The position numbers and the translations under genes are program-made. DNA of 64,000 nucleotides from an uncultured Bacteroidia bacterium (lineage in GTDB: Bacteria; Bacteroidota; Bacteroidia; Bacteroidales; UBA932). The stretch spans positions 124,001 to 188,000 of the forward strand of contig CADBYT010000004.1 in NCBI GenBank assembly GCA_902798975.1, read 5' to 3'. Positions 42,355 to 43,568 of the stretch are shown here, piece by piece (the stretch's first letter is position 1; every line of letters starts with the position of its first letter). A model generated the notes under the pieces. It did not search any database. It was not told the DNA's origin and saw nothing but the letters and a program-made list of their open reading frames with translations.

Positions 42355-42387
42355 ATTATACTACCCCCAAAAACGGGGTAGTATAAT
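42355..42387. terminator. Strong 13-bp inverted repeat after the aldo/keto reductase gene
   Basis: A perfect stem ATTATACTACCCC / GGGGTAGTATAAT with loop CAAAAAC. It sits between convergent genes (aldo/keto reductase and trmB). No long T tract follows, so it may be a terminator for both or a repeat end. The surrounding 42287-42413 is AT-rich and holds no gene. Confidence 0.55.
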
Positions 42388-42413: not shown

Positions 42414-43568
42414 TTACAGATCACAAGGATTGGGCGAGCTAGCGCCGTGGAGTTTCTGCCGGCGGGTCTCGGCGGAGTCGTGGCCGAAGAGCAGGCGCGG
42501 CCCCTCGGCGGCGCGCCAGGCCTTGCTGTCGAATTGTTCCGGGTCCCGGGGGCTCGCATACGGCCCCTCATGGTCGATGACGAACGACAGATACGTAATC
42601 GGATAACCCTGCTCCAGGAACAGCTGCTCGTAAAATGTCTGCACTTCACGTACGACCGGTTGCACGGCCGGCGCTGAATTGCCTGTTTCGGCAGTCCTCC
42701 CAGAAAACCGTGCCACCCTCGGCTTCGTAAGAGGGAGGGGCCCATCGTCAGATGGGAGGGGTCCGGCATAGCCGGACGTTTTTCGGGGGGAGCTGCCGAA
42801 CAGCTCAACGTCGGCCGATCCGTACAGGTCCGTGGTACAGGCAAGCACTTTGAGGCCATTGGCCTCGCAGACGGCGCGGGTGTATTCGTGGAGGAAACGG
42901 GAGTCGGTCTTGAGATGGACGATGCCGCCGGGCTTCAGGAAGGAGCGGTAGCGCTCCAGGAAGAGCGGCGAGCTGAGGCGCGAGTTCTCGCTGCGGTACT
43001 GCGGATCGGAGAAGGTCAGCCAGATCTCGGACACTTCGCCGGGGGCGAAGAACGCGGTAATGAATTCGACGCGCGTCCGCAGAAACGCCACGTTCGGCAG
43101 CGCGTGTTCGGTGGCGTATTTCGCCCCCTTCCACAGGCGCGCGCCCTTGATGTCCACGCCGATGTAGTTCCGCGCCGGATCCCGCTCCGCCAGCGCAATC
43201 GTATACTCCCCCTTCCCGCATCCCAGCTCCAGAACGATTTCGCGCGCAGCAGCTTCGGCAGTCTCCCCGGCAGACCGTAGCCGCCCTCGGCTTCGTAAGA
43301 GGGAGGGGCCCGCCGGACTTGGGACGGAGGCCGCAAGCTCGCTTGCAGGCATCCGGTCAAAGGACGGTGGGAGGGGTCCGGCGCAGCCGGACGTCTGCAG
43401 GGGGGAGCTGCCGAGCTGCAAGCCGCCGAAGAAATCATTCCAGCGACCTTTGATGGCGTGGTCGCGGAGGTGGAAGTAGCCGTCGGCGAGCAGCTCCTGC
43501 GCGGAAGGCTGCAGGAGACAGGAGAACGTCTCGTTCTCCGCGAATTTCCGTAATTTATCGTGTCCCAT
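42414..43568 (-). CDS. trmB: tRNA (guanine-N7)-methyltransferase with two in-frame repeat insertions
   Basis: TrmB makes m7G46 in tRNAs using SAM. Conserved parts are all present: MGHDKLRKFAENETF at the start, SAM motif VLELGCGKGEYTIAL, FIGVDIKGARLWKGAK-like GVDIKGARLWKGAK, WLTFSDPQ (usually WITFPDPQ), HLKTDS and FYEQLFLEQGYPITYL. At 384 residues it is some 130 longer than usual. The excess consists of two insertions, about residues 51-110 and 256-300, each containing SSP-x-x-TSG-x-AGPLP, encoded by a repeat element. The gene overlaps gldH by 14 nt. Confidence 0.9.
   Translation of the reverse strand: MGHDKLRKFAENETFSCLLQPSAQELLADGYFHLRDHAIKGRWNDFFGGLQLGSSPLQTSGCAGPLPPSFDRMPASELAASVPSPAGPSLLRSRGRLRSAGETAEAAAREIVLELGCGKGEYTIALAERDPARNYIGVDIKGARLWKGAKYATEHALPNVAFLRTRVEFITAFFAPGEVSEIWLTFSDPQYRSENSRLSSPLFLERYRSFLKPGGIVHLKTDSRFLHEYTRAVCEANGLKVLACTTDLYGSADVELFGSSPRKTSGYAGPLPSDDGPLPLTKPRVARFSGRTAETGNSAPAVQPVVREVQTFYEQLFLEQGYPITYLSFVIDHEGPYASPRDPEQFDSKAWRAAEGPRLLFGHDSAETRRQKLHGASSPNPCDL
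42687..42800. repeat. MITE-like element, copy B, inside trmB
   Basis: About 114 bp bounded by inverted ends TTCGGCAGTCCTCCC and GGGGGGAGCTGCCGAA. Inside are CCCTC...GAGGG and the perfect hairpin GTCCGGC-ATA-GCCGGAC. It shares its ends, both hairpins and GGCTTCGTAAGAGGGAGGGG with copy A. Confidence 0.8.
43254..43414. repeat. MITE-like element, copy A, inside trmB
   Basis: About 160 bp bounded by inverted ends TTCGGCAGTCTCCCC and GGGGGGAGCTGCCGA. It has the same inner hairpins as copy B (GTCCGGC-GCA-GCCGGAC) plus an extra segment of about 46 bp containing GCAAGC-tc-GCTTGC. The stem is conserved while the 3-nt loop differs from copy B. Confidence 0.8.

Follow-up and report, generated by a model that had tools for sequence, protein, structure and literature searches.

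Two in-frame insertions in trmB

The window, a 64,000-nt stretch of DNA (G000:C4:124001-188000), belongs to a genome (G000) of 2.09 Mb in 39 contigs that is 71% complete and probably belongs to Ca. Cryptobacteroides. Within it lies an open reading frame (ORF) for the tRNA methyltransferase TrmB, identified by a match to NF001080 (215.8 bits; best stretch, residues 108-252), and inside this frame lie two copies of a palindromic element, here called A and B (Table 1).

Table 1 Features of the trmB locus, in window positions
Feature	Position	Strand	Remarks
trmB, tRNA (guanosine(46)-N7)-methyltransferase, 384 aa	42414..43568	-	two in-frame element copies inside
Element copy A	43254..43414	+	antisense to trmB reading
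Copy A, outer stem, left arm	43254..43273	+	
Copy A, core	43274..43394	+	covariance-model match 81.9 bits; starts ACCGTAG
Copy A, hairpin 1	43281..43306	+	CC, mismatch, CCCTC / GAGGG, A, GG; directly 3' of GTAG tag
Copy A, hairpin 2 (variable hairpin)	43309..43371	+	longer than in most G000 copies
Copy A, hairpin 3	43377..43391	+	TCCGGC-GCA-GCCGGA
Copy A, outer stem, right arm	43395..43414	+	one extra base relative to left arm: GGAGCTGCC vs GGAGA-CTGCC
Element copy B, second insertion site	42687..42800	+	core 42707-42779
Perfect 13-bp hairpin	42355..42387		just downstream of trmB

A sequence-only reading of this DNA had described copy A as a mobile repeat inserted in frame in trmB. The inverted ends it reported (TTCGGCAGTCTCCCC at 43254 and GGGGGGAGCTGCCGA at 43414) and the frame open throughout are borne out by the sequence, the ORF and the NF001080 match, and the results below support its interpretation. 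Copy B, in the same gene, goes beyond that single-copy account. The reading had also counted two internal hairpins; hairpins are indeed present, but our core model has three of them, enclosed by an outer stem.

Relative to congeners that lack the inserts, copy A lengthens the gene by 174 nt (58 codons), where the first estimate had been about 160 bp, and copy B by 141 nt (47 codons). TrmB residues 50-107, corresponding to copy A, are missing from the insert-free orthologue of congener G080. Alignment with the solved structures 7nyb and 2fca placed site 1 just before the strand of the SAM motif and site 2 within the loop that follows DL[YH] (DLY in this trmB).

Both copies fold strongly: none of 200 dinucleotide shuffles matched the fold of copy A (43254-43400, last 14 nt omitted; z -3.5) or of copy B (42688-42799; z -5.8). 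Hairpin 1 was drawn for copy A with RNA parameters and full flanks and for copy B in a DNA fold; in the DNA fold of copy A computed without its last 14 nt, the same stretch was paired differently from the model. The perfect hairpin downstream of trmB (ATTATACTACCCC/GGGGTAGTATAAT) stands between convergent ORFs and is probably a bidirectional terminator. Its stem is similar to the arms of some intergenic copies of the element.

Copies across the genome and the genus

A DNA search of G000 with the 161-bp segment returned 27 matches, several of them paired halves of a single copy. With a covariance model built on the 79-nt core, 28 matches were obtained at E<1, 26 of these at E<0.002. A lack of other genomic copies, which would have refuted the sequence-only reading, is thus contradicted. 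ORFs supported by Pfam or NCBIfam span 19 of the 26 copies in frame, in 16 genes (at each locus one or two ORFs were checked against the families, and gene names beyond the family descriptions are our reading). Two copies each lie in dnaX, trmB and the gene for a PG_1098-like protein. Single copies lie in genes for an HI0933-like flavoprotein, a DsbD-like protein, a radical-SAM protein, a YgiQ-like radical-SAM protein, a SpoU methylase, an RlmI-like methyltransferase, KsgA, RNase R (rnr), TldD/PmbA, DNA polymerase I (polA), RecG, a UvrD helicase and an Xer-like phage-integrase-family protein. Four copies are apparently intergenic (L062, L066, L068 and L072), and at L060, L082 and L083 the ORF tested had no family match. 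The two dnaX copies (L059 and L078; G000:C4:98173-98441) have opposite orientations, and dnaX of several relatives carries inserted material at the same place.

Genes read through the 19 family-supported copies in antisense (12) or sense (7) and use at least four frames, as judged by eye; every one of these copies is open, frame-keeping and free of stops. The five intragenic insertion sizes worked out, drawn from open-frame cases among the comparisons listed, were 174, 141, 132, 132 and 126 nt, all multiples of 3, and the enzymes measured gained about 42-58 residues. Out of six frames, the elements had on average 3.6 open in G000 against 2.8 in shuffles, and 3.1 against 2.6 at other loci. Large inserts in conserved enzymes, together with strong folds, could also mean that normal proteins result, the insert being taken out or skipped once transcribed or translated (intron, intein or translational bypass). 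Removal would not require the inserts to be open and frame-keeping, and their being so, in both orientations and several frames, therefore speaks against it. For the trmB region Rfam returned only matches under the gathering score (best E 0.6), on which ground a known structured RNA was set aside as well. We regard removal as very unlikely.

In G000 long ORFs span the element and random segments at similar rates, with no depletion of the element (19/26 element positions versus 401/520 random segments; these 19 are not necessarily the 19 family-supported copies). Among the named records, 23 of 69 copies lay in long ORFs compared with 969 of 1,380 random segments (69 of the 80 named-locus copies had enough flank), and the share was 18/38 at a GC content of at least 55% versus 5/31 below. 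Elsewhere in the genus, genes are thus under-represented among the sites, and the deficit is smallest where GC reaches 55%.

Extending the search, we detected the element in 84 of 101 genomes of the genus (G000 included), with up to 42 matches per genome, and in none of 24 genomes that each represent a different further family of the order. Scanning genome_contigs for the exact pattern gave at least 117 stretches; the 80 matches listed were all titled Bacteroidales, Bacteroidaceae or Bacteroidia, or Ca. Cryptobacteroides (four), and these titles are the ground for assigning G000 to Ca. Cryptobacteroides. The same scan of viral_contigs gave no match, and travel on viruses was set aside on this result.

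Orthologous trmB genes differ in their inserts. Both are absent from congeners G080, G065 and G097 and present in G058 and G008, while in G015 a short linker stands at site 1 and the site 2 insert is reversed; the insert-free trmB pieces are about 82-92% identical to G000 in nucleotide sequence. The core was present in 16 of 30 trmB loci, these being the best-scoring 30 of 94 genomes and not a random sample. Site 2 is a loop with insertions in many congeners, some of them unrelated to the element. Other in-frame inserts at this site in L032, L036, L042, L044 and L057 comprise GGACCTGGTCCA repeats, a long Gly/Ala-rich tract, and CATCCTGAGG- or CATTTCGAGC-type repeats. We considered L044, where site 2 has an arm hairpin and no core, as an empty target and rejected it: read by eye, its letters are what an L042-like copy would leave after a deletion between short GGC repeats.

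The comparison that the sequence-only reading had suggested thus found orthologues either lacking the insert or carrying the same or unrelated sequences in that loop; its second refuting condition, a conserved domain at this place, fails as well, and a conserved TrmB domain was set aside as the identity of the insert. Length variation of site 2 within the genus, and its filling by unrelated sequences, would also suit an ordinary lineage-specific TrmB loop that is not mobile DNA. This account, like that of an assembly artefact, is extremely improbable: the same DNA occurs in 16 unrelated genes and between genes, and it recurs in assemblies that, by their titles, were separately deposited by several studies.

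A common core within copy-specific stems

The copies share one architecture over a length of roughly 110-175 bp. The core mostly begins with a GT[AG]G tag, followed by hairpin 1 (a stem of the CC, mismatch, CCCTC type), hairpin 2 of variable length and hairpin 3, joined by G-rich linkers; 82 of 106 copies have the tag close to where the core starts (GTGG in 48, GTAG in 34). An outer stem of about 22 bp closes the core, and its sequence varies between copies while complementarity is usually kept. Outer-stem complementarity exceeded the 95% point of the null in 84 of 106 copies and did not in 22. The null consisted of 400 mismatched left/right pairs, with a median of 4, a 95% point of 14 and a maximum of 224, one or more extreme values placing this maximum above every real score. 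Of 84 hits entered from other loci, three close to locus ends (L110, L116 and L149) had been left out, and one of the 107 copies entered had no flank, which left the 106 scored.

The stem is also asymmetric. Among the 93 of 123 entered copies that passed the flank and arm-score filters, an extra base 12-15 nt from the core occurred 30 times in the right arm versus 3 times in the left. Over the interval of 8-20 nt, gaps were found in the right arm only in 23 copies, in the left only in 11, in both in 10 and in neither in 49; left-arm gaps cluster at 19-20 nt from the core (14 of 21).

Core and arms diverge to different degrees. Among the 13 within-genome pairs with a core identity of at least 0.93, arm identity was 0.54-0.75 in ten and 0.89-0.93 in three; right arms of random pairs averaged 0.48. 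Near-identical cores between much more diverged arms could indicate that the arms are made from the target at each insertion, by inverted target duplication, or that the core jumps into the loops of pre-existing hairpins, and terminator-like T-runs outside the arms of some intergenic copies would also suit such an origin. Both readings are nevertheless at odds with the empty orthologous sites of L058, L062, L066, L074 and L079 (in G080, G097 or G058): all five had neither arm by eye, which implies that the arms arrive with the core. Two empty-site comparisons for L070 yielded no resulting region. Moreover, some different loci share arms (L209/L210/L211; GGCAACTGCCTCCGG type) and orthologous copies retain related arms. 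We consider either origin of the arms unlikely. Flanks of the empty sites were too diverged to fix the exact element ends or a target-site duplication.

Orientation of the core varies as well. It was opposite between L142 and L103, whose flanks are about 95% identical, and also between L073 and G080/G058, L068 and G097, L080 and G058, and G015 and G000 at trmB site 2. Such differences would be produced by an invertible DNA switch, with the arms serving as recombination sites and the flipping core giving genes alternative peptides, and 12 of 19 in-gene copies stayed open when the core was flipped in silico. Against this, the other 7 gained a stop, and the pattern common to the arms is weak (from the core outwards T/C-rich, then purine, then pyrimidine; right arms of different copies agree in purine/pyrimidine class at 0.555, versus 0.500 when shuffled). 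Independent re-insertion or recombination between inverted repeats would look alike, and we judge a switch improbable.

Three local observations concern the surroundings of individual copies. An extra core-less hairpin of about 24 bp stands beside the L142 element and is absent from L103. A CATTTCGAGCGAAGCCGAGAAATCTC-type repeat adjoins the element shared by L161 and L162 in L161 only. At the Xer-like gene site of G080 (L301), only the apparent right end of the element is left, and it looks like a decayed copy.

Among outer-stem pairs that changed between orthologous filled sites, 31 were altered on both sides, 15 on one side but still paired, and 26 were broken; sliding the stem partner by 1-3 positions gave 0-7 both-sided changes versus the 31 in register (364 stem pairs scored in register, about 145-205 in the slid controls). 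The count drew on 18 orthologous pairs, L142/L103 contributing nothing but gaps; without it and the two L073 pairs, which have an inverted core, 21 both-sided, 10 one-sided and 17 broken changes remained. These figures replace an earlier count over whole folded flanks that took in many flank pairs (40 both-sided, 35 one-sided, 123 broken and 65 gap). The both-sided changes fit selection on a folded strand or correction between the arms at replication, and the retained asymmetry of the stem argues somewhat for selection on the fold. It is possible, if rather doubtful, that the element is defined by its fold and not by the sequence of its ends, with cores being homogenised or exchanged within a genome while each copy has a private stem, whose pairing and asymmetric bulge compensatory change preserves also within coding sequence. 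Were this so, housekeeping genes would be under two selections, one for a nucleic-acid fold and one for an open, tolerable peptide.

Mobilisation and relation to known palindromic repeats

Taken together, the element is probably a non-autonomous mobile repeat, akin to Rickettsia palindromic elements (RPEs) and REPs, that is recognised by its fold, kept in frame and translated as a loop. It would move as a folded single strand, of DNA or, less likely, of RNA, and would be recognised mainly by shape by a trans-acting protein, for which our first candidate is a REP-type HUH tyrosine transposase. Insertion would be broad and gene-breaking copies would be lost, while in-frame copies in loops and linkers would persist, their predicted product being extra low-complexity peptide.

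Genomes with the element tend to encode such a transposase. PF01797 (HUH, Y1 transposase) had matches in 16 of an initial 20 genomes, in 14 above the curated cut-off; the 16 were 15 of 15 chosen genomes with copies versus 1 of 5 without. Five PF01797 proteins matched the NCBIfam family of REP-associated tyrosine transposases (NF047646) with 36-39 bits, short of the cut-off of 80. With a ten-member profile (A3), related HUH genes were found in 87 of 101 genomes at E<=1e-10, and at this threshold a REP-type HUH gene of any subtype was present in 80 of 84 genomes with copies and in 7 of the 17 lacking them (odds ratio 29, p 8e-7, statistics that ignore the kinship of the genomes). Four genomes have copies and no detected HUH gene, seven have the gene and no copies, and the gene is present in each of the 57 genomes that carry at least six copies. 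Neither reverse transcriptase (26/84 versus 6/17 genomes) nor IS110 (13/84 versus 2/17) was associated with copies, and both were set aside as partners.

No core was found near 30 HUH-family loci, the best nearby match having an E value of 0.33, and no autonomous partner was found among these loci or seen among the copies read. At least 5 of 13 type-A HUH genes inspected (L325, L336, L339, L344 and L346) have, by eye, their own, different long hairpins on both sides, varying between genes in the manner of self-mobilising REP units. Because no core lies nearby and the type-A genes have hairpins of their own, we keep the link between the element and a REP-type HUH tyrosine transposase as a tentative candidate only.

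The likeness to RPEs drawn by the sequence-only reading is fair, but its picture of fixed inverted ends is too simple, as the arms vary by copy. A review describes RPEs as palindromic repeats of about 150 bp, many of them in frame in unrelated genes, that can add peptide and have a conserved encoded peptide per element (PMC10969869). The element likewise lies in frame in many unrelated protein genes. Unlike RPEs, it has no single conserved peptide, genes reading it in either orientation and in no fewer than four frames; its three-hairpin core, copy-specific outer stem and occurrence in a different phylum set it apart by description.

REPs offer a second comparison. PMC3733652 describes them as units of 20-40 bp and places intragenic, in-frame copies of GTAG/CGTC REPs outside Rickettsia, in DNA repair and RNA-modification genes; CGTC repeats are also reported there for Bacteroidetes. 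Tagged GTAG/CGTC REPs and REPINs are mobilised by RAYTs, the REP-associated HUH tyrosine transposases. PMC6006769 notes HUH genes with atypical flanking structures in Bacteroidetes. The element resembles REPs in having a GT[AG]G tag 0-2 nt 5' of a hairpin that contains a mismatch, as drawn for copy B, and in lying within genes for DNA repair and RNA modification (PMC3733652, PMC6006769). It differs in its insertions of 126-174 nt, with the tagged hairpin one of three and a long, variable outer stem, and, whereas REPs flank their cognate RAYT gene, its core is missing from the vicinity of the 30 HUH-family loci examined.

Short, non-autonomous enterobacterial repeats of the RU/ERIC type have ORFs able to fuse to genes (PMC2759123, PMC10969869), and non-coding MITEs are described for Porphyromonas gingivalis, of the same order (PMC5771137). 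Like RU/ERIC and other MITEs, the element is short, non-autonomous and fused into gene ORFs; unlike MITEs, it has no constant terminal inverted repeat, its arms varying by copy and being shared by subsets. The diverged empty-site flanks did not establish a target-site duplication. A MITE has reportedly been described in Cardinium (PMC9769881). In integron attC sites, stem sequence varies while the fold and an extrahelical base are kept, and the element is alike in its variable stem sequence, kept fold and extra base.

These features give the element a wider use. It amounts to a second well-populated natural experiment, in gut bacteria, in how folded selfish DNA becomes protein, with 84 of 101 genomes bearing copies, orthologous sites both filled and empty, enzymes that have two insertions and a single site occupied in either orientation. 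Copy-specific yet complementary stems make shape-only recognition directly testable. For annotation, TrmB, DnaX and PolA in these MAGs are predicted to carry repeat-derived peptide.

The sequence-only reading knew of no such element in Bacteroidales, and our literature search on Bacteroidetes, Bacteroidales and Cryptobacteroides found no in-frame palindrome for Bacteroidales or Cryptobacteroides; in-frame intragenic palindromes as such had already been described outside Rickettsia. In its way of life the element is closest to RPEs and intragenic REPs, while departing from each on some points. In-frame coding palindromes are therefore already known, whereas this element family and its copy-specific stems appear to be new.
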